A DNA stretch of 64,000 nucleotides from Shouchella patagoniensis (GTDB lineage: Bacteria; Bacillota; Bacilli; Bacillales; Bacillaceae_D). The position numbers and the translations under genes are program-made. The notes under the pieces were generated by a model that worked only from the letters and a program-made list of their open reading frames with translations, was not told where the DNA came from and ran no database searches. The DNA lies in assembly GCF_002019705.1 (NCBI RefSeq), contig NZ_KV917377.1:1672565-1736564 (forward strand), given 5' to 3'. Below are positions 19,510 to 33,217 of this stretch, piece after piece; the first letter of the stretch is position 1; every line of letters starts with the position of its first letter.

Positions 19510-20280
19510 TTACGCGGTAACAATTGTCGCTTCATATCCCTTACTTTGCAATTCATTAACAAGTGCCACGGCATTCGCACGTACAGAAAATGCGCCAACT
19601 TGTACCCTGAATAATCCACCGCTTTCTGTAATAAGTGCTTCGTATCCATCCGCTCTTAACCTTGCTTGGAGTGCTTCAGCATTTGCTCTGGATGAAAAAG
19701 CACCTGCCTGTACGCGGTAAATCGTTCCGCCTCCACCGCCGCCAGTTTGCAAGTTTAACGCTTGAACTAATCCATTTACATGACCACGTGCTATGCGGGT
19801 TAAAAAGGATGAATCTCTTAATAAAGCAGCATCATTTGCATGATCAATAAATAAATTCTCTGTTAGAATTGCAGGCATAGTAGACGTTCTTAAAACCGCA
19901 AAGTTTGCAGCTTTCTGCCCACGGTTTACTCCACCAATCTGCTGGATAATCGCCGGATGGATAATGCGCTGAGCATTTACTGAACCCGAGCTTGCACTAG
20001 TGTGGATAAATGACTCGAAGCCTGTACCTCCCCCTGCATTTATATGAATAGACATAAAATAGTCTGCTCCCCAACTGTTTGCCAAATTTGTCCGTTGTGT
20101 AAGTGATACAGCGGTATCACCTGTACGACTCATCCTTACTTCCACATTTTGATACTCTGCTAATAACATATCACGAATCCGCAATGCAATTGTCAGATTT
20201 AAAGTTTTCTCCTGTAAACCATTACCTACAGCGCCAGGATCACTTCCACCGTGCCCTGGATCTAAAAAGATTTTAACCAT
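19510..20280 (-). CDS. N-acetylmuramoyl-L-alanine amidase with SPOR repeats
   Basis: 256 residues. The Amidase_3 domain (about 1-175) has zinc ligands H in DPGHGGSDPG, E in LQEKT and H in SIHINAG, and the catalytic Glu in LTENLF. A Gly linker leads to two SPOR-type repeats (VQAGAFSSRANAEAL, VQVGAFSVRANAVAL) that bind denuded glycan. AGGAGG precedes the ATG; there is no signal peptide. It lies directly downstream of the tail genes on the same strand, so it may be their cell-lysis enzyme. The size and architecture also match the sporulation amidase CwlC. No holin-like gene is visible. I see no sigma-K promoter upstream. Confidence 0.9.
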   Translation of the reverse strand: MVKIFLDPGHGGSDPGAVGNGLQEKTLNLTIALRIRDMLLAEYQNVEVRMSRTGDTAVSLTQRTNLANSWGADYFMSIHINAGGGTGFESFIHTSASSGSVNAQRIIHPAIIQQIGGVNRGQKAANFAVLRTSTMPAILTENLFIDHANDAALLRDSSFLTRIARGHVNGLVQALNLQTGGGGGGTIYRVQAGAFSSRANAEALQARLRADGYEALITESGGLFRVQVGAFSVRANAVALVNELQSKGYEATIVTA

Positions 20281-20534: not shown

Positions 20535-20786
20535 TTACTCGGCTTCTTCTGTAGGTGCTTCAAGTCGAGAAATAAATTTTTCTCTAATTAAGTCCACCAA
20601 TGCGACCAATCCTGGCGCCTGAAAATACTCTTCCATCGTTACTTGAACACCACCACTTGCGTTAATTTCGCCTGTTGGATCGGTTACAAAAAAACGTAAA
20701 CGCACTCCTTCAATTCCTTCCTCCGTACTACCATACATAAAATCGACACCTGACACGCGTAAATCTAACTTTTCTACTCCTAACAT
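20535..20786 (-). CDS. Small phage-tail-module protein of unknown function
   Basis: 83 residues, acidic, no membrane segment. Its ATG shares a TAATG overlap with the DUF1617 gene, so it belongs to the tail operon. I do not recognise a family. A short hairpin with T7 (around the stop codon) may end the operon here, leaving the amidase 254 bases downstream with its own or read-through transcription. That 254-base gap holds only AT-rich sequence and no further gene I can support. Confidence 0.75.
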   Translation of the reverse strand: MLGVEKLDLRVSGVDFMYGSTEEGIEGVRLRFFVTDPTGEINASGGVQVTMEEYFQAPGLVALVDLIREKFISRLEAPTEEAE

Positions 20787-21223
20787 TATTCATCATCTCC
20801 CTTTTCTTCTTTTGCTTGCTCAAATGCTTCTACAACCAAAAAGTGTATCTCTGCATCTTCGTTAGACAACTTCTGATCTAAATTCATAATGATTCCTTCT
20901 AATGTTTCTAAAGCTTGCTTGTAATTCGGATTGTCAATTACAAATGATTCCTCAAAGAGTTTTTCTTGCTGCTCCCGAAACTCTGTAGCGGACTCTTGAT
21001 CCTTTAAACGGAAACCACCTCCCTCACTTCGTACCAGTTCACCCTTTGAATCCACTTCTGCATGAGCTTTAAGCAACTCGACCTCTTCAGCCACAATTTC
21101 CTCATGCTGCTTTTTCAGCACATTCACAATACGCATACGGTGAATATTCTCCACACCAGATAATTCAATCCCAACTAAAAACTTTGCTACTCTATCTAAG
21201 TCCTTCTTCAAAATTGTAATCAT
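20786..21223 (-). CDS. DUF1617-like phage protein
   Basis: 145 residues, mostly charged and helical. The N-terminus with alternating hydrophobic positions and the RMRIVNVLKKQHEEIVAEEVELL stretch resemble the DUF1617 family found downstream of tail-fibre genes in Listeria, Bacillus and other siphophages. The start codon overlaps the stop of the tail-tip gene (ATGA), showing coupling. Function unknown; in siphophages these small genes often encode fibre-assembly or baseplate accessory factors. Confidence 0.72.
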   Translation of the reverse strand: MITILKKDLDRVAKFLVGIELSGVENIHRMRIVNVLKKQHEEIVAEEVELLKAHAEVDSKGELVRSEGGGFRLKDQESATEFREQQEKLFEESFVIDNPNYKQALETLEGIIMNLDQKLSNEDAEIHFLVVEAFEQAKEEKGDDE

Positions 21224-24200
21224 GCAATCCGCTCCTCTAATTCGTTTATTTTTCTTTTTAACAACTGGTTTTCAAGCTCTAAAAAAGACACTCGATCAAC
21301 GGTGTCTTCTAATTTAATATCTAGTTCTTGAACCGCTTTTACGGCATAGAATAAAACTCTTCCATCCTCTACACCTAAACCATCTTCTGTTGCAACGCTT
21401 GGACTATCCTCTGAAATGACACCTATATTTAATCTCGGATTCGCTATGCCTGAATTCGGTTCTAAATCAGCTTTCATATAATAAGTAACGATGTTCAAAT
21501 CCTTCATTACATCAAGACCGCTACCAGAAAACTTTTCAATCTGTGTTTTATACGTTCTTGATGAACTCCTTGCAAATTCACTCGCTCTAATCCGTCTATA
21601 GTTAGGCGAATCGTTATTACGAAATGCGGCTGAAGTGACACGAACCTCATTACCCGGTCCCGGAGCTAAATACAAATTGTTACCGCCATTAACTCGCATT
21701 GTGTTTGCTCGGATATCTCGGCAAGCAAGATCTCTATAATAGATAGGTGAGTCTGTAACACCGTTAAAATTCGTGATACGAAGCTCGTTATTGACTAGAG
21801 CATAGATATTGTTCGTTTTAGCTCTTATGTGCCCCTCGTACCAATCGTACGTATGCAGCCTTTTAGCGCTTAACGATCCTGTACCTTTATCACCGTTACC
21901 ATTTGTCGCCCACAGATAAGGTTCGCCAGCCGAAGTTTTCTGGAAGCGTAATCCGCTACCGAAATTCGTATTTGGTGAACCATATGCAATCCATCCATCA
22001 GTATCGCTCGGACTATCGTTATTTTTTACGCCAAACTGATAATGGTTGTTACCAGCTCTCCTGTCATCCCTTGGCATAATTGTTACTACACCGCGTGATG
22101 ATATTATTTTTATATCCCTGTCAGCGTCTAAGATGATATCTCTTAGCTCTGTTTTAATTCCTATGTTCCCTCTGTTAGAAAACAAAGTGAGTCCGCGGAC
22201 AGTTGGTGTATTCCAGCTATCCCCGTTATACATATGACTGAAAAACTCTATGACACCTGACCCGTGGTTTTCATAGTTGGCATTCTCGTCATCATATCCA
22301 CGAAGAAATGTCGATAAGCCAAAATCAGAGAAATAAAGGCGGCGGTCTTCATTGATGTTTTCAGCCATGAAATAGCCATCTGATGCTCGAAGTGATACGG
22401 TATGCGTTTTGGTTGATCCGAACCATGTTCGAGTGTAACGACCGCGTGAATCAAAATAACCACCTTGTATGGTGGTTGTGTTGTTCCCGTTTGTGGATGT
22501 GAAGATCGAACCTGTAATGTTTACAGCATTTAAATTAATCGATCTAATCGTACCAGCCGTGATTTTATCCGCAGTTAAACCAGCTATCTTGGCGCTTTGG
22601 ATTGTTGCTTCTGCAATATGAGCATTTGTGATGATGGCTTCTTGCAAGTTAGCGCGTGTGATCGATGCATTTGCAAGCGCAGCGTTTCCAGCGGTTATTG
22701 ATCCAGCAGCCATCTTGTCGGCTGTGATAGCTCCATCTACGATCAATTGCGCATTGGCACGTCTTCTGACAATGATGTTATCGAAATACATTGAGTTATT
22801 AGCACCAGCAGGATTGTTCCACGTAAACCAAATTCGCACATAAGCAGTGTTTGACGGAACTGTAAAAGTTCCGCTTATTGTAACCCAAGATGAACCTGCA
22901 TTGTTAACACTTGCTACGACTAAGTGAGTCAACGCCCCTTTTTTGGCATCAAAGGTTCTGAAACCGATGCGTGGTGACCTGTTGCCGCTCGTATTGAGCA
23001 TTCTCGTTTCGGCTTCGATATACAACTGTTCACCTGGTGCGACTTTAATGTATCTTTCTTGATAAACGTCTACGTTACCACTAGCCCTAGGTTCAACCCT
23101 CATAGACTGATTAGAACCGTTCCCGTTTGTCCAACTTCTCATATCTTGTACTCTGATATTTGTGCCACTAAACCATCCTAGCGGTACAGTTTCTGGTTTA
23201 TCGTCTTCGAAATCGCTATTATCTGCTAAGTTAGTAAAATCACCAACATTAAGCAATCTAGTGTCAATTTTGACCTGCTCCGGTGTCAGGTTAATAGCAC
23301 TAATAATGCCATCTCTTGATACTTTTTGAGTGATCTGATCGGTTTGAACCGATATTTCCCCCTCTGCCTTGGTCATACGTCCGGCAATACCGTCAACTTC
23401 TGTTTTCGTGGCTCTCAAGTCAATGGAATCAGCTTTTTGATCAATTGCCGTTTTCTGGCTGCTTAATTCGTTTGCAATAGACTTAGATTCAGTAATATCA
23501 ACAATTTGTATATCATCGACCATTACCCAACCCTGTGTTTGGTTCGTGACCATACGAACATCAATTTCATTGACATCACTAGGAACGCGAAACTCCCATT
23601 GGATTTGCATCCATTCTGTTTGGGCGCCGCTCCAACCTCTATCTCCTAACAGCCCACCCGTGATCCTGCCAATACGGAGTTTCTGGTTGTTGGCTGAGCC
23701 GTTGGCATTCGCACTAGTTTTATACCAATAGGAAATACGCAATAAATTCCCCGGCGTTACAACGATAGGTGTTGTTACTGAGTGATTTCTAGTACCAGAC
23801 GAATTTTGGGCAAAATACAGCGATTTACTGCCGCTTTTGCTATCTGTTGATCTCACTTCCCCATTCCCTGTCCAACCAACGCCACCTGCTTCGAAACTAC
23901 CATCCGGGACAAGGTTTGTACCACTGCTTGGTGCGCTCTCTATACGTTCAATTGAAGTGCCAAATCGTTCGGCAGTTAACTCTAAAGAACCTGTTTTGTC
24001 GGTCAACGAGATAACTTCGCCTGTTAAATCATCAACCTTTGTAGTTGTGCTACTAACATTTCCACGTATACCGTTTAGATCAACAGCAAGCTCGGACATT
24101 TTTTGCGTGTAAACTGAGGTGTCGAGTTTATTGCTCTCGATACGATCAACTTGGTCTTGGGAAGCTTTAGCAGAAATAAGACCCGGTAGGACCTCTAAAG

Positions 24201-26853
24201 AAGTTTCTGTTCTTGTTGTACGCTCTTTGAGTGTGCCTATATCTCCGGCAATATCTTCCGGCGCAAAATCCCATTCAGTGGGTTTAGTGCCGCGTTCCAA
24301 TTTTTCTTGCTTTATTTTAATTTGATAGGTCGAAGTCCAACTAACGGGCATTATTCTACCCCTTAATTCTGTGAAGCCTGAACCAGTTGTGTCGTTCGGA
24401 ATAATAGCAGAGAAATGTATTCTCCCATTTGTAGATACCGCCTGATCAACAGCAGACGAATGATTCAAATAAGTCCCATCCGCTCTAAACCAATCAAATC
24501 GAAGTCTCACCCGTTCGCCGTTCGGAATGTCTTGTACGTAAACACTCATAGTAACTGGATCTCCAATCGAAAGTGAAGCCCGATCCATAGGTACTCTAAA
24601 TAACGACGCATAACCCCATTCCCCGACGTTTATAGATTTCAAGTTTTGAGAAGAGCCTATTATTAAGTTCCGACCGCCAATTTCCATATTCCCGAAACTT
24701 GTTTCCAACGTCGTTAAGTTGAAATTAAAAGCATCCGCTCGTTGCTCTAAAGTGGAAGTTCTGGACTTAACCCCTGATACCTCACCAGTAACAGTATTAA
24801 TGTCTGTCGTATGGTCTGAAACCTTTGTATTAATGCCTTGTATACTGGCGTCAATGCTTGTCATTCTTTCTGTATATTCGCCCGTATCAAGCTTTTTATC
24901 AAGGTCGCCCTCAACGCCTTCAATACGCAAGGATAAACCAGTATCTAATATTTCCAAATCTGTATTAATAGTTGATATACCGTCATTTATTGCATTGATT
25001 TGATCATCAGTTGTTCCAAACTTGCCATCAACATAACTTAGTCCTGCTTTGTCCGCTAGATCCTTGCGTATGTCGCCTTCAACACCGTTTATCACCTCAA
25101 CTGCATCAGTAAACTTCCCGTCCACATAATTAAAGCCAGCCTTATCAGCCAGCTCTTGATTGATATGATTTTCAACATGCTGAATTTCTTGATCTGTATA
25201 ATTGCGCGTATCCCGCTCGACTTGATCAAAAACCTCTTGCTTAATTTGATCGATGCCTAGCGATCCGTCTGCTATGATTTGCGCTCTTTCAGACAAACGA
25301 CGCAACTCATTGGCAATATCTTCTCCAAACAAAATGTCATCAGACACAATTCGCGCTGTTGTCGCACTTATTTCCTCTGAAAAAGCAGAGTACGTTTCAT
25401 GGTAATTAAAAGCTCGAACTCTGAAATAGTATTGCTTGTTTGCCTCTCCTTGAAATACATAGCCATTTGCTCTTCCACGGTAAACAAGCGTTTCCGGTGT
25501 ACCAGCAAATCCCTCTACCTCACTAGCGTACACTTCGTAACCAGCTACATAAGTGTTCAAGTAGTTATAATCCCATTCAACCATTACTGCACTAAACAAA
25601 CCTGTCGCCATTACATTTCCTGGTGTTTCAGGAGGGATATCCGGAAAAGAACCCGGGTTAATGGGGCGGCCTGCTTTGTCCCAAACGTGCGCGTTCTCTT
25701 TTACTTTTGCTACAACACGTTGAAGTTCTTGATTGGGATCAGAAAAGAGCGGTAAAAATTCACCGAGCACAATTTCATCATTTGTTGGGTCAAGCAAGTC
25801 TCGCTTTATTTCAATGATTCTTGTGCGTTCTTGAATTTTTGGATACACGTCATCATCCAGTACCGCCACTGTATCTCCAAGGTGTACACGTTCATGTTCA
25901 TAAAGCGATAGACGGAACAAATCGATTACTTTACCTGCGTAATTCACCAATGGAGAAGAGGTCGACTCCAAGTATTCAAACGTCTGTTGCAGTAACTTTT
26001 CAGGATCCTTCTCATCTGATTGTTCATAAATGCCATAGCGATGTCGTTTGCCGTTTTGGTCTGTTCTTCCCCAAATAAGACGGGCGTGTTCGTCCCCAAT
26101 CCAATCTTGACCTTTTGGTTTATCCACAGGGTCTCCATTTTCTTTTTTCCAAACTACGTCTTTAAACGTTAACGGTTCACCAGAATCTCCATTTTCGTTT
26201 TCTTTAGGCTGACCGTACCCTCTAATAGCTGTTTTGACTCCTGTCATGTCAACGGTGCGCTCAATTTCCTTTACATCTTTATCGTATTCAAACCGCTTCC
26301 CCGTGTCGTTTCCTCTTCGAGACAAAATGTCGATGTACCGACCTGCAATTTTGTTTCTGGAAATAGAGACGCGGCATTTTACTTCGCCATGCCATGTATT
26401 AAGCAATTCATTTAAAGCGCTTTTTACATTCGAGCTTTCAATCTTAAACGATGCCTCTCCAAGCGCAGAGACTTCCCCTTTTTGCCAACGGGTTGACGAA
26501 AGTAAATAATCCAATACTTTATCAGCACTTGCCTTCTCGAACACAGCACTTTTCACATATTCATCTAATAATTCATTGATTGCATGCTCACAAATCGCTG
26601 TCTTTAAAGCAACATCTCCGTGGTTATCCTCAACAATCGCAATTTCAAACAATTGGAATTCGTTGTCGTCTTGATCACAAAATGCAACCAAGTTCCCCTC
26701 CATAATTCCAAAAGCATGATCGCTATTAGCTAAAACAGTAAATTCTAGCGAATGAACATTATTTAATTGTTCTGTGTGAATCGCTTCTACCACATGCCGT
26801 TCATCAAGAACGGCAAGCAGTTGCTCTTCACTATTAAACACGAATAGGTTCAT
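21220..26853 (-). CDS. Giant tail-tip/fibre protein (Tal N-terminus, CBM-like modules, S74-type chaperone)
   Basis: 1,877 residues, the largest gene here. The N-terminal 380 residues resemble the prophage endopeptidase tail (Tal) hub. Next come a fibronectin III domain (about 404-501), a long heptad-rich stalk with repeated DKAGLSYVDGKF-type units (about 520-720), three jelly-roll carbohydrate-binding-like modules (about 724-862, 976-1121, 1206-1362; each begins NL...S/DGSFE-like), a beta-repeat fibre (SITAGNAALANASITRANL), and a C-terminal S74-like intramolecular chaperone (about 1739-1877) ending in a coiled coil. It should bind the target cell wall and complete the tail tip. No frameshift was found; the gene looks intact. 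Confidence 0.88.
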   Translation of the reverse strand: MNLFVFNSEEQLLAVLDERHVVEAIHTEQLNNVHSLEFTVLANSDHAFGIMEGNLVAFCDQDDNEFQLFEIAIVEDNHGDVALKTAICEHAINELLDEYVKSAVFEKASADKVLDYLLSSTRWQKGEVSALGEASFKIESSNVKSALNELLNTWHGEVKCRVSISRNKIAGRYIDILSRRGNDTGKRFEYDKDVKEIERTVDMTGVKTAIRGYGQPKENENGDSGEPLTFKDVVWKKENGDPVDKPKGQDWIGDEHARLIWGRTDQNGKRHRYGIYEQSDEKDPEKLLQQTFEYLESTSSPLVNYAGKVIDLFRLSLYEHERVHLGDTVAVLDDDVYPKIQERTRIIEIKRDLLDPTNDEIVLGEFLPLFSDPNQELQRVVAKVKENAHVWDKAGRPINPGSFPDIPPETPGNVMATGLFSAVMVEWDYNYLNTYVAGYEVYASEVEGFAGTPETLVYRGRANGYVFQGEANKQYYFRVRAFNYHETYSAFSEEISATTARIVSDDILFGEDIANELRRLSERAQIIADGSLGIDQIKQEVFDQVERDTRNYTDQEIQHVENHINQELADKAGFNYVDGKFTDAVEVINGVEGDIRKDLADKAGLSYVDGKFGTTDDQINAINDGISTINTDLEILDTGLSLRIEGVEGDLDKKLDTGEYTERMTSIDASIQGINTKVSDHTTDINTVTGEVSGVKSRTSTLEQRADAFNFNLTTLETSFGNMEIGGRNLIIGSSQNLKSINVGEWGYASLFRVPMDRASLSIGDPVTMSVYVQDIPNGERVRLRFDWFRADGTYLNHSSAVDQAVSTNGRIHFSAIIPNDTTGSGFTELRGRIMPVSWTSTYQIKIKQEKLERGTKPTEWDFAPEDIAGDIGTLKERTTRTETSLEVLPGLISAKASQDQVDRIESNKLDTSVYTQKMSELAVDLNGIRGNVSSTTTKVDDLTGEVISLTDKTGSLELTAERFGTSIERIESAPSSGTNLVPDGSFEAGGVGWTGNGEVRSTDSKSGSKSLYFAQNSSGTRNHSVTTPIVVTPGNLLRISYWYKTSANANGSANNQKLRIGRITGGLLGDRGWSGAQTEWMQIQWEFRVPSDVNEIDVRMVTNQTQGWVMVDDIQIVDITESKSIANELSSQKTAIDQKADSIDLRATKTEVDGIAGRMTKAEGEISVQTDQITQKVSRDGIISAINLTPEQVKIDTRLLNVGDFTNLADNSDFEDDKPETVPLGWFSGTNIRVQDMRSWTNGNGSNQSMRVEPRASGNVDVYQERYIKVAPGEQLYIEAETRMLNTSGNRSPRIGFRTFDAKKGALTHLVVASVNNAGSSWVTISGTFTVPSNTAYVRIWFTWNNPAGANNSMYFDNIIVRRRANAQLIVDGAITADKMAAGSITAGNAALANASITRANLQEAIITNAHIAEATIQSAKIAGLTADKITAGTIRSINLNAVNITGSIFTSTNGNNTTTIQGGYFDSRGRYTRTWFGSTKTHTVSLRASDGYFMAENINEDRRLYFSDFGLSTFLRGYDDENANYENHGSGVIEFFSHMYNGDSWNTPTVRGLTLFSNRGNIGIKTELRDIILDADRDIKIISSRGVVTIMPRDDRRAGNNHYQFGVKNNDSPSDTDGWIAYGSPNTNFGSGLRFQKTSAGEPYLWATNGNGDKGTGSLSAKRLHTYDWYEGHIRAKTNNIYALVNNELRITNFNGVTDSPIYYRDLACRDIRANTMRVNGGNNLYLAPGPGNEVRVTSAAFRNNDSPNYRRIRASEFARSSSRTYKTQIEKFSGSGLDVMKDLNIVTYYMKADLEPNSGIANPRLNIGVISEDSPSVATEDGLGVEDGRVLFYAVKAVQELDIKLEDTVDRVSFLELENQLLKRKINELEERIA

Positions 26854-26875
26854 TAATTTCCCCCCTTCCTTTGCT

Positions 26876-27595
26876 TTAGTACCATTTTTCGTTAAAAACG
26901 GCTTCTATTTCTACATTGTCTGGTAAATTAAAATGGTTTTCTCCTTTTTTTAGGAATAAGTCAGTGAATCGTGACCGTAGATCCAGAATTGGCATCGCTA
27001 GCTCATCATTGTGACGAATTAACCCCTTTTCCGTATCAATCCAAACCCGATCTCCACTTTTAAACGATCTTATTAATCGGAATGGTTTGTTGTCTTTTTC
27101 AATGACAAAATCTGATGAGTCTTCTTCAAATAATATGGCAAAAATAGGCATTGCTTCTGCTGATGCTTCATAATTAATCGTATTGTTTTCGCTATTTAAT
27201 TGAACCTGCTTCTTCAGACCTGTACCCATAGGTTCAGAAATTTGAAAAATAATCTTGCCTGTCTTCAAAAGCCCTTTACCAGAGAAATCGGTAAAATCAG
27301 AAACAAATGCTTTATAGGAAAGCTCTGGTTCATCGAAGAATATAAGTTCTCCTTCTTCCAAAGCCAACAATGGGGCCATCTCTCGCATCATTTTCCTTTG
27401 TTCTTCATAACTTTCCGAAAGCATCAGTACGTCTATTTCAATTTGGCGTTCCTCCCAACGCTTATTTGCAGGTATCACACCATTTTTCACTTCTACGTTT
27501 GTCACTTTGCGCGGTGGAAGTACTGCCCGATTATCCCCAAGAAGTTTTAACCACTTCGAAAAATTAACTCCATTAAATGAAAACCAAGCATTCAT
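26876..27595 (-). CDS. Distal tail protein (Dit), siphovirus type
   Basis: 239 residues. The N-terminus (FSFNGVNFSKWLKLL), the ring-forming beta domain, and the C-terminal galectin-like half (WIDTEKGLIRHNDE, then IEAVFNEKWY) fit the phage-tail Dit family of Gram-positive siphophages and PBSX-like elements. Dit forms the hexameric hub joining tail tube and Tal. It lies between the tape measure and the tail-tip gene, exactly where Dit always lies. GGGGG-type ribosome site upstream. Confidence 0.87.
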   Translation of the reverse strand: MNAWFSFNGVNFSKWLKLLGDNRAVLPPRKVTNVEVKNGVIPANKRWEERQIEIDVLMLSESYEEQRKMMREMAPLLALEEGELIFFDEPELSYKAFVSDFTDFSGKGLLKTGKIIFQISEPMGTGLKKQVQLNSENNTINYEASAEAMPIFAILFEEDSSDFVIEKDNKPFRLIRSFKSGDRVWIDTEKGLIRHNDELAMPILDLRSRFTDLFLKKGENHFNLPDNVEIEAVFNEKWY

Positions 27596-27613
27596 TCATT
27601 GTACCCCCTCTCA

Positions 27614-29578
27614 TTAATACCGTCCTCTAGCACGTACTGCCATTTGGCCTCGCCGCCCAAATTCTGCATCCATAAACGGGGCAGTCACTTTTGCGATCTG
27701 TTTGCCCTCAAGATGTACGGGGACTTCAACTGTCATTCGCTCAAAACTAGAATTTTGAGCGTTTGAACCAAGGCTTTGGTCTAAACGATCAAGACCTCTG
27801 TTAACAAGAGAACCCGCTCCTTGAATATCTGGAAGTGCTAATGCTCTTGTAAAAGCACGTTCGATTGTCGGTATATCATCGTTAATTGAATCTTTAATAG
27901 GCCCACCAAAATTTAATCGATGAATATCCTGAAGTGGTCCTTCTTTCGCTGGTGAGAACGGTAGAAAGTCGCGGACTTTTCCGGCGACATCCGAAATCGC
28001 GCCAGTTACAGAACTGATTGCACCGCGTATACCATCTGCAATGCTATTTACAATGTTCTTTCCTGCCTCTTTAAAACGACCGACGAAGTTCATGACAGCA
28101 TCCAGCGCTCTTTGAATACCATCCGAAATTGCTGTGCGGATATTAGTCATTGCAGTTGTTACACTTGTTCGGACTGAGTTAAAAATATTCGTAAATGTAG
28201 AACGAATAGCGTTTAACCCTGTTGATACAGCGGAGCGCGCCCCTGAAATCCCAGTTGAAATGAACGATCGAATAAAGTTGATTGCAGTTGTTACTACGCT
28301 TTTCACTGTATTAAAGATCGTTGTAAAAATGGTTTGGACTGTATTTAGAGCTGTTGAAATAACCGTTCGCACCATGTTCATTCCTGTTTGTATAATCGTA
28401 CGAATCAGGTTTATCACAGTCGTGACTGTTTGTGAAATGGCAGAAAAAATCGTCGTAAAGATTGTTCGGACAACGTTTAAAACAGTCGTAATAATCGTGC
28501 GAATCATTGTCATTCCTGTTTGGATTATCGTTTTGATTACATTGATTACAGTAGTAACAATAAGCTGAATGGCTGAGAAAATCGTTGTAAAATACAGCTT
28601 AACGATGTTCAAATAAGTTGTAATTACAGTTTTAATGAAACTCATTGCACTCGAAATAAAGCTCATAATAAAGTTAATAACGGTGCCAATTACTGTACTA
28701 ATGGCATTCCAAACCGTTGATATAACAGATTGGATAGCTGGCCATGCTGTTTGCATTAAATTTGAAATGAACCCCATTACTGATTGGACTACAGACCAAA
28801 TTGTTTGAAACACCGTCTCTATAAGCGGACCAATGAAGGTAAGAGCCGTTGAGACAGCTGATTTAATTGTTTCCCAAACGGAAAGAACCCCATTTTTAAA
28901 TGTCTCATTTGTATTCCACAAATGAATAAATAAAGCAACCAACCCTGCAATTGCAACAGCAATGAGTCCAATCGGTCCAAGTGAGATCCCAAGAACATTT
29001 GATAGAGCTTGAATCGTGCCAATGACGGACATAATCGATTCTTTCAACGGACCAACCGCTTCAAGCGTTGACCCCATTCCGCCAACAAGTTCAAAGAATG
29101 CTTCACTCCAATTTCCTTCAGATAAACTTGAACTAATGGAACTGAAACTTTCCGTAATACCAGTAGCAAAATTGGTTGCTTGCGTTTGTACCTCTGTTAA
29201 TTGTGTGCCTAATGTGGAAACAAGTTGTCCCGCTTCACCAATTTTCGCTGTATCAATTGGCAAGTTAAAGGAATCCATTGAAGATTGGATTCCACTAAAA
29301 GAAACACCCATTTCTTCGAGCGAGCTTTTCAACTGGGAAACTTGCTGTTTCGAAGAGGCCATGCTTTCTGTAAGGCTAACAAACGCTCCACCCCAATTTC
29401 CCCCTTGAATCTGACTATTGATTGAACTGAACTGTTCACTTATCCCCCCCGCAAGATTTGAAACTTCAGAATGGACTGACCGCATTTGCGTCTCTAATGA
29501 ACCTAGCTGTTTACCTGCCTGTTCCAATTGCTCAAAACGAATATTAATTCCTAAAGCTTTTCCGGAAAATAAATCCAT
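27614..29578 (-). CDS. Phage tail tape measure protein
   Basis: 654 residues from the ATG at 29578, which has AAGGAG upstream and overlaps the stop of the GT frame (TAATG). The N-terminus is a coiled coil; hydrophobic stretches at about 195-215 follow, then at least four degenerate repeats of about 42-44 residues (about 285-500) of the form TTVINxIxTIIQTGMxMxRT. The C-terminal part (SPAKEGPLQDIHRLNFGG) is typical of tape measures. In the family, length sets tail length at roughly 1.5 angstrom per residue, which would give about 98 nm. No lytic transglycosylase or peptidase domain is visible. Confidence 0.87.
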   Translation of the reverse strand: MDLFSGKALGINIRFEQLEQAGKQLGSLETQMRSVHSEVSNLAGGISEQFSSINSQIQGGNWGGAFVSLTESMASSKQQVSQLKSSLEEMGVSFSGIQSSMDSFNLPIDTAKIGEAGQLVSTLGTQLTEVQTQATNFATGITESFSSISSSLSEGNWSEAFFELVGGMGSTLEAVGPLKESIMSVIGTIQALSNVLGISLGPIGLIAVAIAGLVALFIHLWNTNETFKNGVLSVWETIKSAVSTALTFIGPLIETVFQTIWSVVQSVMGFISNLMQTAWPAIQSVISTVWNAISTVIGTVINFIMSFISSAMSFIKTVITTYLNIVKLYFTTIFSAIQLIVTTVINVIKTIIQTGMTMIRTIITTVLNVVRTIFTTIFSAISQTVTTVINLIRTIIQTGMNMVRTVISTALNTVQTIFTTIFNTVKSVVTTAINFIRSFISTGISGARSAVSTGLNAIRSTFTNIFNSVRTSVTTAMTNIRTAISDGIQRALDAVMNFVGRFKEAGKNIVNSIADGIRGAISSVTGAISDVAGKVRDFLPFSPAKEGPLQDIHRLNFGGPIKDSINDDIPTIERAFTRALALPDIQGAGSLVNRGLDRLDQSLGSNAQNSSFERMTVEVPVHLEGKQIAKVTAPFMDAEFGRRGQMAVRARGRY

Positions 29579-30266
29579 TACCTTGCTCCTTTCCACTTGC
29601 TTGCCTCAACTTCCATATTTCCTTCATCCCATTCGGCTACACTACGGTTCTTTTTATCTTGCACGAACCTCCGAAATGCACTATCTTCCGGTAGCCCGCG
29701 GACAAAAACCAAGAACCGCCTCCAGGAAAGGCGGTTCTCTAAACCATCTCTTGTTAAATTCAACCTGTAAAAACGGTAAAAATCGGCTTCAAGAGCTGCC
29801 CAAGCCCAAATAATTATCCTTGAATCTTGGTTTTTTTTTGAACCGTGTTTGATGTAGCCGCTGAACCTTTGACATCATAACCCCATAATTTCATAATGTC
29901 AGGTACTACATGCTTAAAGACGAAATTTACACCTGCATTTGATTGTTCTAAATGTTTAAGAAACTCTTTTCCTAACATTAACTCGATAAAGTCGTACATT
30001 TTCTCTTCTGGTACGGCCATTTGTGTCTTGCCCTTTACCTTTTGTACGCAATGGCGAAAATAGAAGGTCGCAAATTGAAACGGCATTTCCGTTGGAATTT
30101 CAAATAAATTTCCGGCGAATTTGACATATTGGTGTTTTTGCTCGTTTAATTCCTCTGCTAAAGCATCATCATAATCAGCTACTAACTGTTCTTGCTGGAT
30201 TTGCGAAAGCTCTTCGGCTTTTTCATTAAGAATCTGCAAGCGGTCCGTTGAGTTATTCGCCAACAT
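29578..30266 (-). CDS. Tail assembly chaperone GT fusion made by -1 frameshift
   Basis: Minus-strand reading from the G gene start passes into the -1 frame at the A9 run (29831-29839) and continues NQDSRIIIWAWAALEADFYR, then NLTRDGLENRLSWRRFLVFV, to a stop at 29578. The downstream part is the DUF5361-like T extension of siphophage chaperones, with the typical ALEADFYR...LSWRR pattern. It has no start codon of its own at the front (the ATG/TTG at 29763 is internal), so frameshifting is the natural way to express it. Expected total about 230 residues. Confidence 0.8.
29814..30266 (-). CDS. Tail assembly chaperone G
   Basis: 150 residues. The ATG at 30266 follows AAGGTGG; a GTG three codons earlier is possible. 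Helical and acidic, with the family pattern FAGNLFEIPTEMPFQFATFY, then a MYDFIELMLGKEF region and a poly-Lys end where slippage occurs. It coats the tape measure until tube polymerisation. Overlaps the tail tube gene by 14 bases, and sits between tube and tape measure as in siphophages. Confidence 0.82.
   Translation of the reverse strand: MLANNSTDRLQILNEKAEELSQIQQEQLVADYDDALAEELNEQKHQYVKFAGNLFEIPTEMPFQFATFYFRHCVQKVKGKTQMAVPEEKMYDFIELMLGKEFLKHLEQSNAGVNFVFKHVVPDIMKLWGYDVKGSAATSNTVQKKTKIQG
29831..29839 (-). other. Slippery site for programmed -1 frameshift
   Basis: On the minus strand the zero-frame codons are GTT CAA AAA AAA ACC; the A AAA AAA heptamer lets both tRNA-Lys slip back one base. 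It lies 15 bases before the G stop codon. This is the conserved expression device of lambda G/GT and its Gram-positive counterparts. Confidence 0.78.
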
Positions 30267-30681
30267 CTGCACCACCTTCGTCGATAATTAATTTTGTATT
30301 AACACGAAACTCCCCTGAGAACGTATAGATACCTTCCGATACAGAACCTTCCTCTTCATAAGTTGTAAAAAACCCTGTTAATGCATAACCTGATCCGCTC
30401 GCATCTGTATGTTTAATCACAGCCTCTTGTCCAAGTTCAGATACACGCTTAAGCTCTGATTGTCCATCATCTTCCAGCAGCGCAATCCCCTCCATTGAAA
30501 CTGTTTCACCAACTGAAGCAGCAATAAATTTTTGACGAAAAACGCCGCCGCCTTCTACTGTATCACCAAGACCTGTTACATCCGCTTCTTCTACTTCAAG
30601 CGAGTGTGTAAATGATGTTAGTTTCGCTACGATTTGTCCGTTTACTTCAACGCGTGTTCCTGCAAATTTTTTCTCTGACAT
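30253..30681 (-). CDS. Phage tail tube (major tail) protein
   Basis: 142 residues, beta-rich. Family-like features are the N-terminal KKFAGTRVEVNGQIVAKLTSFTHS, the loop VTGLGDTVEGG and a C-terminal strand FSGEFRVNTKL. It fits the short TP901-1/phi13-type tail tube group. Ribosome site GGGGG before the ATG. It is the first gene of the tail operon and follows a LexA-type box; no tail terminator, connector or capsid gene precedes it. Confidence 0.8.
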   Translation of the reverse strand: MSEKKFAGTRVEVNGQIVAKLTSFTHSLEVEEADVTGLGDTVEGGGVFRQKFIAASVGETVSMEGIALLEDDGQSELKRVSELGQEAVIKHTDASGSGYALTGFFTTYEEEGSVSEGIYTFSGEFRVNTKLIIDEGGADVGE

Positions 30682-30775
30682 TATTAATTCCCCCGTTTAG
30701 ATCAATTTTTTTTGGTGCCGGCACACCTAACGAATGTCGTAGTTTGGTTTTACCTAACCTTGCTACACTACTATC

Positions 30776-30805
30776 ATAATACAGAACAAATGTTCTGTCC
30801 TGTCA
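30776..30805 (-). promoter_or_regulatory. Tail-operon promoter with LexA box in its spacer
   Basis: On the minus strand TGACAG (30805-30800), 18 bases, TATTAT (30781-30776). The spacer is filled by the 18-bp palindrome ACAGAACAAATGTTCTGT (30781-30798). Its core GAACAAATGTTC (30784-30795) fits the Bacillus SOS box GAACRNRYGTTC at every defined position; only the outer C/G pair is A/T. LexA bound here would block the promoter until DNA damage. No other phage repressor gene is present. Confidence 0.68.
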
Positions 30806-30827
30806 TCTTTCTGCCATTATTCTGCCA

Positions 30828-30855
30828 TTGATTTGTGTTAGTATAGACTTATAAA
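30828..30855 (+). promoter_or_regulatory. Promoter for the first DUF4429/SHOCT gene
   Basis: TTGATT, 16 bases, TATAAA (30828-30855), about 70 bases before the ATG at 30927. It is back to back with the tail promoter; the LexA palindrome ends 30 bases upstream of its -35. Confidence 0.5.
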
Positions 30856-30926
30856 ATAAAACAACAAGAATGATAGATTAATAGTTCTTTTTTCACATCG
30901 GTAGCCTAAGATACGGAGGAAAAACT

Positions 30927-31778
30927 ATGAATAAAAGATTTAAAGGACAAGGTTCTTCTCTATTTGTTGAACATGACAAAATTATATTGTCACATGGCAA
31001 GAATAAACAATTAACTAGTAAATCTAAGCCTGAAATAGAAATATTCTATTCAGATTTAGATCGGTTAGTTTTAGATAAACCAGGACTCTTCTCGGGATAT
31101 TGTTATTTTCTAAGAAAAGGATACGAAATTGATTCAATGAAAAAAACGGACATTATGGTGGATGAATATGCTATTACACTTGCTTTTTTTCCACAGTATA
31201 AACAGTTTTTAAAAGCACAGGAATTAATTAATCAACATATAATCCGAGCAAGGCAAGAAAACCCTAATAAAAATGTAAAAAAAGATAATCAGAGGAAATT
31301 AGTAAGCGAACTGCTTGATAATTCCGATAAAAACATTGAGTTTAAAGGATATTCAGGCAGCATTTGTGTAAGTGCTCGGTCAGTCATCATTAAGTACAAA
31401 CCAATTTTACATAGAGGGGGAAAAGGTTCAAAATCAATTGATATTGGCCGAATTTCGAGCATATCTATTTCAAAACCTTCCATAACAAGTGGAAAAATAC
31501 AGATCTTTTATGAAGGTTTTTCAAGCAGAGGATATAGAAGTTTAAATGAAGAACCAAACGAAATAGCTATTACCAACATTAATCACTACAATCAAATGGT
31601 CGAGGCTAAGGAACTAATTGAAACACTGCAAGCTTATTATACGAGCGAAGGTCTTTCACTACAGCAAGTTGTAGATTCTTCCCCCGCCGACGAAATTCGC
31701 AAATATAAATCCCTTCTTGATGATGGAATTATTTCAGAAGAAGAGTTTGAAAATAAGAAACAAGAGTTGTTAAGGTAA
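30927..31778 (+). CDS. DUF4429/SHOCT domain protein A
   Basis: 283 residues. Two related beta-rich PH-like halves (about 1-105 and 125-245; FKGQGSSLFVEHDKI and FKGYSGSICVSARSV begin them; each continues with a KPG/KPS...SG motif) are followed by a C-terminal SHOCT helix pair (DEIRKYKSLLDDGIISEEEF). SHOCT domains occur at the ends of many proteins and probably mediate oligomerisation. No signal peptide or membrane span. GGAGG precedes the ATG. Divergent from the tail operon and paralogous to the next gene. Cargo, regulator or immunity function is unknown. Confidence 0.82.
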   Translation: MNKRFKGQGSSLFVEHDKIILSHGKNKQLTSKSKPEIEIFYSDLDRLVLDKPGLFSGYCYFLRKGYEIDSMKKTDIMVDEYAITLAFFPQYKQFLKAQELINQHIIRARQENPNKNVKKDNQRKLVSELLDNSDKNIEFKGYSGSICVSARSVIIKYKPILHRGGKGSKSIDIGRISSISISKPSITSGKIQIFYEGFSSRGYRSLNEEPNEIAITNINHYNQMVEAKELIETLQAYYTSEGLSLQQVVDSSPADEIRKYKSLLDDGIISEEEFENKKQELLR

Positions 31779-31797
31779 ACCACTTAAAAAGGCACAG
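31684..31797 (+). repeat. 114-bp direct repeat, copy 1 (3' end of gene A)
   Basis: Identical to 32671-32784 except at 31760 (A instead of G). It covers the SHOCT-coding end, the stop codon and 18 bases beyond, offset 987 bases. The rest of the two genes is clearly diverged, so this part was recently homogenised or copied. Confidence 0.95.
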
Positions 31798-31817
31798 TTG
31801 TCGCTGCACCTTTACTT

Positions 31818-31875
31818 TCATTCCAGAGGAGAACTTTCATCTTCCCATACGACAAATAGGTAAAATGCAATTTCT
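31818..31875 (-). pseudogene. Vestigial C-terminus of the ArpU-type regulator
   Basis: On the minus strand this intergenic bit reads EIAFYLFVVWEDESSPLE-stop, against KLCYLFAIWEDESPLE-stop at the end of the intact ArpU gene (32804). It lies in the same place relative to gene A as the real ArpU end does to gene B. A tandem duplication of about 1 kb that carried the end of arpU explains it. Confidence 0.6.
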
Positions 31876-31925
31876 TAGATGCACTTTGCTATATTCAGTA
31901 AAAAGAAGATTGTTAGGAGGGATTA

Positions 31926-32765
31926 TTGTTGGATAAACAAACAGTATTTAAAGGTCAAGGTTCTGTTCTTACTGTAAAAGATAATAAAATTACCATTAAA
32001 CATGGGAAAAGAAGACAATTTGCTGATAAAACTAAACCTATTATAGAAGTAGATATCACAGACATTGATTCAGTAGTAATGATTAAACCTGGCATAACCT
32101 CGGGATATTTTTATTTATTAAGAAAAGGACATTCAATTGGTACATTATCTAAATTGTATATCTTGGGAGATGAATACGCAGTCGCACTCCAATTTAAACC
32201 TCACTATAATAATTTTTTAAAAGCAAAGGCATTGATGGAAGAGCAGCTTATATCCTTACAAGATCACACAAAAGCAGATGTTTCAGAAGCTTCTCGCCTT
32301 TACAATACATTACTTATTAATGAAGAAAAGACTCTAACATTTAATGGTCAAACTGGAAACTTAATCATTAGCCTTACTTCATTGACGTTCGAATATAATC
32401 GTCTTCATGCTGGGGCCTCTGATAAAAAAACAATAAGCATTGATAAAATCAGCGGTATTTCTTTATCAAAACCAGGGTTTTCTTCTGGGAAAATCAAAAT
32501 TAACTACGAAGGGTTTCAGCGTAGAGGCTTTGGAACGTTAAAAACCGATGAGAATGAAATATGGATCTCCACTATTAGCCAATATAATTCATTACTAATC
32601 TTAAAAGATTTGATTGAAATTATACAGAGTAGCGCAGACCATGTATCAGACTCTAATCTCTCACTGTCATCCGCCGACGAAATTCGCAAATATAAATCCC
32701 TTCTTGATGATGGAATTATTTCAGAAGAAGAGTTTGAAAATAAGAAGCAAGAGTTGTTAAGGTAA
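31926..32765 (+). CDS. DUF4429/SHOCT domain protein B
   Basis: 279 residues, starting at a TTG (31926, or the next TTG at 31929) with AGGAGG just upstream. Same architecture as protein A: two PH-like DUF4429 halves (FKGQGSVLTVKDNKI, FNGQTGNLIISLTSL) and a SHOCT end identical to A. The N-terminal parts are only about half identical, so the paralogues have diverged while the 3' ends were kept the same. Convergent with the ArpU-type gene, 38 bases apart. Confidence 0.8.
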   Translation: MLDKQTVFKGQGSVLTVKDNKITIKHGKRRQFADKTKPIIEVDITDIDSVVMIKPGITSGYFYLLRKGHSIGTLSKLYILGDEYAVALQFKPHYNNFLKAKALMEEQLISLQDHTKADVSEASRLYNTLLINEEKTLTFNGQTGNLIISLTSLTFEYNRLHAGASDKKTISIDKISGISLSKPGFSSGKIKINYEGFQRRGFGTLKTDENEIWISTISQYNSLLILKDLIEIIQSSADHVSDSNLSLSSADEIRKYKSLLDDGIISEEEFENKKQELLR

Positions 32766-32784
32766 ACCACTTAAAAAGGCACAG
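32671..32784 (+). repeat. 114-bp direct repeat, copy 2 (3' end of gene B)
   Basis: Second copy of the repeat at 31684-31797, with one mismatch. Looser similarity (GCTG..CCTTTACTT..CATTCCA) continues past it into the ArpU gene end, matching the vestige after copy 1. Confidence 0.95.
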
Positions 32785-32803
32785 CCGTTGCTGGGCCTTT
32801 ACT

Positions 32804-33217
32804 TCATTCCAAAGGACTCTCATCCTCCCATATAGCGAACAAATAACAAAGCTTCTCAAAGGCTTTATTTTTAATTCGATAGTACTGCCGTTCGCTAATT
32901 AACATGTCCATATACACTTGATAGTCAAAACGGTCACTTTCTTGTAAATAGCGACGCACAATAAGCTCTCTTTCCGTTGAAGCTAGCTTATTTACACAGT
33001 CCTCAATCATTAATAAAAAGGCTTTCCGTTTAGCTGCGGCGTCAATATTCTTAATGGCTGTTTGTTCAGTCGATGAGAAGAAAGAGCGTGGTCCGCTTGC
33101 AGGAACCAATTGAAAACTTTGTGTGGTTTTCGGTTGTTCCTCATATGAAAAGGTTAATTTATATAAGTTATACTTTGAAAGCTTTTGTTCTACGTACCTT
33201 TTTTCTTTTTTATTCAT
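32804..33217 (-). CDS. ArpU-family late transcription regulator
   Basis: 137 residues from the ATG at 33217, preceded by AGGGAG. The longer frame to 33352 runs through the neighbouring terminator and is not used. An N-terminal KKEKRYVEQKLSKYNLYK segment and a C-terminal sigma-70 region-4-like helix-turn-helix (ELIVRRYLQESDRFDYQVYM, SERQYYRIKNKAFEKL) fit ArpU/late-activator proteins of Gram-positive phages, which turn on structural and lysis genes. It reads toward the tail operon and is the only phage-type regulator nearby. Confidence 0.8.
   Translation of the reverse strand: MNKKEKRYVEQKLSKYNLYKLTFSYEEQPKTTQSFQLVPASGPRSFFSSTEQTAIKNIDAAAKRKAFLLMIEDCVNKLASTERELIVRRYLQESDRFDYQVYMDMLISERQYYRIKNKAFEKLCYLFAIWEDESPLE

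Follow-up and report, generated by a model that had tools for sequence, protein, structure and literature searches.

A block of siphophage tail genes in a 64,000-nucleotide stretch of DNA from Shouchella patagoniensis (called here, as a whole, the window) is most likely a domesticated F-type tailocin that is fixed in the chromosome. The block lies on the minus strand and is accompanied by two SHOCT-domain genes on the plus strand. On balance, the evidence favours a tailocin that is controlled by LexA and ArpU, in which a variable segment of the tape measure protein (TMP) would enter the target membrane and the neighbouring PH-SHOCT proteins would be the cognate immunity proteins. The anatomy of the locus, its conservation, selection, the operator, the co-variation and the loss of the tail with retention of SHOCT genes were computed directly. 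An earlier note on this DNA regarded the DUF4429/SHOCT genes as an unexplained addition. They are present as described, but they are now the most informative part of the locus.

Results

The tail genes follow the siphophage order of tube, chaperone, TMP, distal tail protein (Dit) and tail-tip protein (Tal) (Table 1). The tube was identified by fold only, and the assignment of chaperone G rests on a weak match and the frameshift. No sheath gene was found, and only the G/GT frames lie between tube and TMP, as in the non-contractile type. The A9 run and the open -1 extension of the GT frameshift are kept in 10/10 loci. The tube protein is 88-89% identical in eight Shouchella relatives and 72% in Halalkalibacterium, and chaperone G is 80-84% identical within the genus. 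The ArpU gene was found in 8/8 other genus loci (51-100% identity). The SPOR amidase gene, which sits just beyond the interval originally delimited (20535-33217), was found in seven of these eight; the contig of the remaining one, G006, stops before that point.

The tube profile matched 9 of the 13 genomes of the genus and 10 of the 41 of the family; at the order level it matched 4 of 397 genomes, all four inside the family. TMP matches reached E <1e-116 in 8/12 other genus genomes and were weaker (8e-72) in another family genus; lower-scoring matches elsewhere were not counted as orthologues. The headless locus is present in one of two Halalkalibacterium genomes. Genome labels, as taken, are G004 for S. 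clausii AKU0647, G011 for S. tritolerans, G009 for Shouchella rhizosphaerae, G003 for S. oshimensis, G012 for S. miscanthi, G006 for Bacillus sp. JCM 19041 and G015 for Halalkalibacterium halodurans. Three kinds of chromosomal site carry the tail locus. In six loci, including that of the window, the tail is flanked by an ABC transporter on one side and a nitroreductase gene on the other (in G006 the contig breaks off within Tal). This first site is empty, with the two neighbours abutting, in G001, G003, G005, G008 and G012; G002 has the nitroreductase gene without adjacent ABC genes, and G007 gave no match. The second site holds the tail in G003, G008 and G012, and at the third the G015 tail lies downstream of dnaA-dnaN-recF-gyrB-gyrA.

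The headless tail module described in the earlier note was confirmed in its anatomy (tube, G/GT, TMP, Dit, Tal and amidase). No head genes were seen beside the tail in open reading frame (ORF) maps of the 10 loci; the searches covered a sample of the unmatched flanking ORFs and, for G015, none of those downstream of the tail. By family search, the sampled flanking genes are chromosomal in type. The tail genes were said to be intact, and their frames are open in 8/9 genus loci; the ninth, G006, is a fragmented draft whose frame breaks occur also in its ABC-transporter flank. The tail genes are maintained by purifying selection, with dN/dS below 1. Within clades, omega was 0-0.22 for tube, G, Dit, amidase and ArpU, 0.08-0.25 for Tal and 0.08-0.51 for TMP. 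The top value came from G004-G011, a comparison that spans the swapped segment described below; apart from that one TMP pair at 0.51, omega over the tail genes was 0-0.29. Flanking genes gave 0-0.07. G006 was left out for TMP, Tal and amidase, and pairs with saturated dS gave no omega. It is therefore very improbable that the locus is a decaying prophage remnant that keeps tail genes without function. All of its parts are phage-like, one species has lost the tail and the window shows no holin, but the frames are open, omega is low, the operator and frameshift site are conserved and the maps of relatives show no head genes.

A single PF04860 portal was found in the window genome, within a distinct prophage some 250 kb from the tail block. 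Besides this portal, the prophage encodes a terminase, capsid, tube, TMP and Dit of its own; it is unrelated to the tail block, and the idea that the tail is a piece of a split prophage was rejected since the prophage has its own tail. A recently decayed prophage is disfavoured because of the different chromosomal addresses, the empty sites and this unrelated prophage with its own tail elsewhere. The complete tail set of the prophage also argues against another role for the headless tail, such as effector delivery, release of cell contents or tail supply to a head-carrying prophage. So does the lack of a PF04860 portal in 6/9 tube-positive genomes (other portal families were not searched; G006 is 86% complete), and protein family searches of the window showed no effector-like gene in the tail block. 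Tailocin function is deduced from anatomy, which lends such a role some room, but we give it very little credence. Recruitment from a known phage was also rejected; a search of 50,697 phage records gave no hit for the tube at E 0.01, and a tube scan of IMG/VR returned only a copy of the window's own stretch. The TMP start had no match in the phage-record search, and the whole TMP matched 1118 records, all at <60% identity and none covering 80%. IMG/VR holds the locus as a 13.6-kb viral contig (L051) that is identical, base by base, to a stretch of the window and starts exactly where the coding sequence of the ABC transporter ATPase begins.

SOS control, which the earlier note had suggested, is supported for the structural promoter by the conserved position of a predicted LexA operator. 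An exact GAACN4GTTC core lies upstream of the tube gene in 9/9 Shouchella loci, with variable centre and flanks; it was not found there in Halalkalibacterium. The core also occurs near lexA in 12/13 genomes. In the window, it falls within the -35/-10 spacer (30801-30773, AGGACA-17-TATGAT), where the -35 is poor; promoter and terminator scans of the window were at chance level. On window statistics alone the LexA box was rejected (13 matches vs 15.5 expected), and it was accepted only because it is conserved across loci. TGGCA repeats lie directly upstream of the box, exact in 7/10 loci and with one-base variants, judged by eye, in the other three. The TGGCA-N6-TGGCA pattern occurs once in the window, with 0.04 expected per base-shuffled window, and we propose the repeats as a candidate ArpU site. 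They were absent from six phage regions viewed, of which only one has an annotated ArpU gene, so that the proposed operator finds no outside support in these regions.

A SHOCT gene adjoins all 10 mapped tail loci. There are one to three divergent copies per locus (two in the window, G008 and G012, three in G003), on the strand opposite to the late operon. The two copies of the window, a and b, are 48% identical. The model of SHOCT a (pLDDT 84) matched PH domains, which predicts tandem PH domains and a SHOCT domain. The SHOCT proteins had no match in NCBIfam, none of four matched the PADLOC anti-phage models (2023 library) at E<=0.1, and a sequence search of solved structures gave nothing useful.

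Co-variation was scanned in 45 pairs from the 10 loci, using the SHOCT copy next to the tube and 40-column windows. G015, which has no ArpU, was not in the ArpU scan; TMP columns 40-119, gapped in most loci, were unscored; and the G006 TMP was used to its first frame break. Identity in the TMP segment followed SHOCT identity with r 0.86 (partial 0.80 given tube and G, Mantel p 0.0002) and a peak of 0.93 in a single column window. The first 240 columns of TMP held the signal (r 0.67-0.93, partial 0.50-0.90), which exceeded that of any other scanned part. When the best SHOCT copy replaced the tube-proximal one, r was 0.85 and the partial 0.77. ArpU, Dit and the rest of TMP gave raw r of 0.13-0.59 and partials <=0.32. 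Tube and G gave raw r of 0.41-0.60; since the partials were conditioned on these two, their own low partials carry no weight. In ten leave-one-out runs, r was 0.13-0.38 for a second hypervariable stretch of TMP vs 0.87-0.96 for the segment, and with eight representatives it was 0.04 vs 0.78. Kyte-Doolittle hydrophobic stretches occur in or at the end of the TMP segment in 10/10 loci. The TMP of the window carries this segment twice (residues 7-93 and 107-188, 37% identical; self-alignment, E 2.6e-11).

The pattern is clearest between G004 and G011. In 150-base windows over 12.3 kb, aligned windows were 96-100% identical except at the SHOCT gene, which was unalignable but for its conserved C-terminal end, and at the TMP start, which was unalignable with an edge window at 81%. 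Tube and G, which lie between both swapped spots, were 98-100% identical. Tal was 100% identical (rounded) whereas SHOCT was 36%, and the idea that SHOCT tracks the receptor-binding part was rejected on this ground. Receptor specificity alone would not protect such strains from each other because they combine the same Tal with different segment and SHOCT alleles. G010 has both G011 alleles (TMP segment 95-96%, SHOCT 92%) and differs from G004 at both, and G009 is intermediate at both. G008 and G012 share SHOCT a (100%) and the TMP start (98-100%), though amidase, arpU and mid-TMP differ (down to 63%). Between G008 and G003, identity was lowest across the SHOCT genes (58-97%) and in a single TMP window (69%); the other windows were at 81-100%, except that three between the SHOCT genes were unaligned. 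The ArpU and Dit of G006 are 95-100% identical to those of the window. However, its TMP segment is nearest to G011/G010 (50/49%, vs 41-42% for G004/G009 and 25% for the window), and its proximal SHOCT is also nearest to G011/G010 among proximal copies (45% vs 27-34%). The top TMP-segment partner was the top proximal-SHOCT partner in 8/10 loci; in a ninth, G006, both top partners came from the near-identical G010/G011 pair.

These comparisons bear on the possibility that SHOCT is ordinary phage-defence or superinfection-exclusion cargo unlinked to the tail, and that the co-variation reflects hitch-hiking of neighbouring polymorphic spots. The two spots are close together, the samples are few, replacement in G000 vs G006 was block-wise, and many viral contigs contain SHOCT-like genes (70 loci, of which most match the C-terminal part only). 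However, tube and G are unchanged between the two replaced spots of G004 and G011, they track SHOCT less well than the segment does (raw r 0.41-0.60 vs 0.84-0.93), the second hypervariable stretch does not co-vary, and G006 groups with G011/G010 at both spots in spite of its window-like ArpU and Dit. We consider this explanation unlikely. For any one pair, linked inheritance could genuinely explain the pattern; G004/G011, with their unchanged tube and G, and the case of G006 speak against it, in a small sample.

SHOCT genes were also found without the tail. G005 has no tube, and its alignment to G008 jumps by about 9.8 kb at one junction. At the G008-type site it keeps the flanks, the LexA core and repeats, arpU, the amidase, two SHOCT genes and 94 residues of the last tail-cluster gene. 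One of its SHOCT genes is intact, with omega 0.20 vs G003. This gene probably moved between lineages recently, given its dS of 0.31, which is much lower than the 1.16 of the amidase. In the tube-less G001, one SHOCT gene stands alone at another place (omega 0.14-0.15) and a second, more distant one is broken; neither tube nor SHOCT gene was found in G002 and G007. Orphan immunity genes occur in colicin and S-pyocin systems. In phages, six of 33 matching records were viewed, picked for variety. A PH-SHOCT gene sits beside integrase or repressor genes in five annotated regions (Ruminococcus phiRg519T2, Staphylococcus SA97, Enterococcus B1578 and EH-TP1, and Lactobacillus JNU_P11); the record of phage X2 has no product names but a similar gene layout around its PH-SHOCT gene.

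TMPs are generally handled by chaperones, and PH-SHOCT could be a TMP-specific assembly chaperone for the hydrophobic N-terminal segment rather than an immunity protein. In favour of this are the presence of SHOCT beside the tail in all 10 mapped loci and its co-variation with the TMP N-terminus. The opposite strand and the one to three divergent copies per locus do not fit this role well. It is further weakened by the intact SHOCT gene of G005 after tail loss, with the lone gene of G001, and by the location of the annotated phage relatives in lysogeny rather than tail modules. We therefore think a chaperone role improbable. Immunity genes, on the other hand, would be expected to co-vary with the toxic part above their neighbours and to be kept without the weapon. 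The former was observed in the 10 loci, more weakly without near-duplicates, and the latter in the intact copy of G005 and the lone copy of G001.

The remaining features of the block are listed in Table 1. A sequence search of solved structures with the tube gave nothing useful (best 0.013, an engineered protein).

Table 1. Features of the tail block and its control region in the window.
Feature	Position	Strand	Support
ArpU-family late-gene activator	32804..33217	-	TIGR01637 100.2 bits, cut-off 43.1
SHOCT protein b, distal copy; candidate additional immunity gene	31926..32765	+	SHOCT 39.5 bits
SHOCT protein a, beside tube gene; predicted tandem PH + SHOCT; candidate cognate immunity protein	30927..31778	+	SHOCT 39.3 bits
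Direct repeats TGGCA/TGGCA/TGACA, 11-base period; candidate ArpU operator	30801..30827	-	
LexA-type operator AGAACAAATGTTCT within -35/-10 spacer	30783..30796	no strand	conserved core
Tail tube protein	30253..30681	-	tube fold matches, low-confidence model
Tail assembly chaperone G	29814..30275	-	weak PHROG match and position
A9 slippery run (29831-29839) and -1 frame T extension of GT	29578..29839	-	
TMP, 660 aa	27614..29596	-	phrog_58 1e-78
Variable N-terminal TMP segment	29033..29578	-	duplicated in window TMP; co-varies with SHOCT protein
Dit	26876..27595	-	SPP1_Dit 59.7 bits
Tal tail-tip/receptor-binding protein	21220..26853	-	Prophage_tail, CBM_4_9 (two stretches), Peptidase_S74
DUF1617-like protein	20786..21223	-	phrog_1401 1.6e-25
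83-aa protein	20535..20786	-	phrog_30730, 3.6e-10
N-acetylmuramoyl-L-alanine amidase + SPOR; candidate lysis enzyme	19510..20280	-	Amidase_3 160.5 bits, SPOR 67.9 bits

By eye, the end of arpU and a SHOCT C-terminus with its downstream stretch look duplicated between the window SHOCT genes (31779-31925, 32766-32860), as if SHOCT cassettes insert or recombine there; the C-termini are alike within a genome. A PF05105 holin lies between tail tip and amidase in both relatives tested (G004, L021:13302-13805; G010, L029:12532-12942). A malate operon (malic enzyme, 2HCT transporter and two-component pair) is present in or beside the tail locus of G009 (L032:1860-7059), where the domains were tested, and by gene sizes only in G010, G003, G008 and G012 (L030, L024, L034, L035).

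The tip of the second-site loci differs (L033:10592-17822). Its Dit and Tal are about 22-25% identical to those of the window, and it also includes a GH18-domain protein of 949 aa (minor tail, phrog_3432). S. oshimensis and S. miscanthi also have a second, tail-only cluster (G003 L069:13005-L070:6653; G012 L071/L072) with a different tube, found in 2/13 genomes, and a sigma-factor-like gene (phrog_3512). Neither the LexA core nor the TGGCA repeat pair was found in this cluster. The C-terminal 750-770 residues of its Tal are 55-57% identical to the window Tal, and it has in common with the window the DUF1617 and 83-aa genes, which were not found in G004-type loci. This sharing suggests that tip modules have been exchanged between two tail lineages.

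Discussion

The F-type tailocin interpretation offered in the earlier note is supported by these results; from them we infer particle formation, killing, the channel and binding. LexA would repress the structural promoter through the box between -35 and -10, ArpU probably binds the adjacent 11-base repeats as an activator, and DNA damage would lift the repression. Tube, G/GT, TMP, Dit and Tal would then assemble a flexible tail, which would measure about 98 nm if each of the 660 TMP residues accounts for about 1.5 A, and Tal would bind a cell-surface receptor of related bacteria. TMP may pass into the membrane of the target, and its hydrophobic N-terminal segment would help to form a lethal channel there. 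The tandem-PH/SHOCT proteins, encoded on the opposite strand, would protect producers and receptor-sharing kin, each recognizing the variable N-terminal segment of its cognate TMP. The toxin segment would be exchanged and evolve together with its immunity gene, and additional or orphan SHOCT genes might guard against other strains. The chances seem about even that PH-SHOCT binds the membrane-entering segment of its own TMP and blocks the channel, that the phage family represents a general TMP-directed superinfection exclusion, and that tailocins diversify by toxin-immunity pairs as well as by tips.

Several observations weigh against cognate immunity in this tailocin. The sample consists of 10 loci, some nearly identical; without G010 and G008, r fell to 0.64 (partial 0.48, p 0.023), and with six representatives the segment gave r 0.55. 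Tal was outside the co-variation scan, and a dedicated TMP chaperone would also co-vary with the TMP N-terminus. The number of SHOCT copies (1-3) and that of TMP segments, which is one in G008, G012 and G003, do not correspond. The swapped stretches are about 1.1 kb apart, and linked inheritance could contribute. In G000 vs G006 the whole SHOCT-tube-G-TMP block differs, and the G008/G012 pair fits linkage as well as pairing because everything between is also near-identical. Over all copies, the nearest SHOCT of G006 is an extra G003 copy (47%) whose TMP segment is unlike, and the two top partners of G015 disagree. The other SHOCT copy of G005 is interrupted by a stop. In the window, no holin was seen, and the tube fold model is of low confidence.

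Cognate immunity is directly testable, because natural strains differ almost only at the TMP N-terminus and the neighbouring PH-SHOCT gene. If true, it would offer a role for a family of uncharacterized phage proteins from lysogeny modules, and would indicate the TMP N-terminal segment as the killing part. S. clausii, among the relatives, is used as a probiotic. Among the listed titles and abstract openings on tailocins and monocins, Bacillaceae, S. clausii, and SHOCT with phage, we found no Shouchella tailocin and no immunity role for SHOCT.

Listeria monocins, the nearest kind, are likewise encoded by a headless siphophage tail module with TMP and receptor-binding protein on a Gram-positive chromosome. 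The tube fold matches of the low-confidence window model include 8qhs, 9j1k and 9j1j. In the parts of the report consulted, monocins have lysis genes and respond to DNA damage, and are controlled by a CI-like repressor and the MpaR metalloprotease (PMC6872733). Neither of these regulators was found among the searched proteins of the window block, which instead has a LexA box, ArpU and PH-SHOCT genes. Monocins have a holin and an endolysin, whereas the window shows no holin. Judged by its regulators, the window tailocin appears not to be a monocin as a specific family. F-pyocins of Pseudomonas are likewise non-contractile headless tails, but of a Gram-negative host. R- and F-pyocins are said to lack dedicated immunity proteins in the portion of the source consulted (PMC13295577), and the paired arrangement with its candidate immunity genes would set the window tailocin apart from them. 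A tailocin review, as far as consulted, takes self-immunity as given and ties resistance to lipopolysaccharide (PMC12090994).

Other prophage-encoded or defence proteins target TMPs. The Ltp lipoproteins of Streptococcus thermophilus phages do so, but in the account consulted in part they are surface-exposed, have repeat domains and act on the C-terminal end of TMP (PMC3952083). PH-SHOCT has a different predicted fold, is presumably intracellular and is paired with the N-terminal segment. SNIPE recognizes siphophage TMPs through a variable interface, with susceptibility tied to TMP clades; however, it is a membrane-bound nuclease that cuts injected DNA, and PH-SHOCT is not mentioned in the part of its description consulted (PMC13190303). 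Tailocins, unlike the targets of SNIPE, carry no DNA. Colicins and S-pyocins pair a toxin with a cognate immunity gene (for the S type, in the part consulted, PMC13295577). Those toxins are soluble single proteins, whereas the toxin part here would be a TMP segment of a tail.

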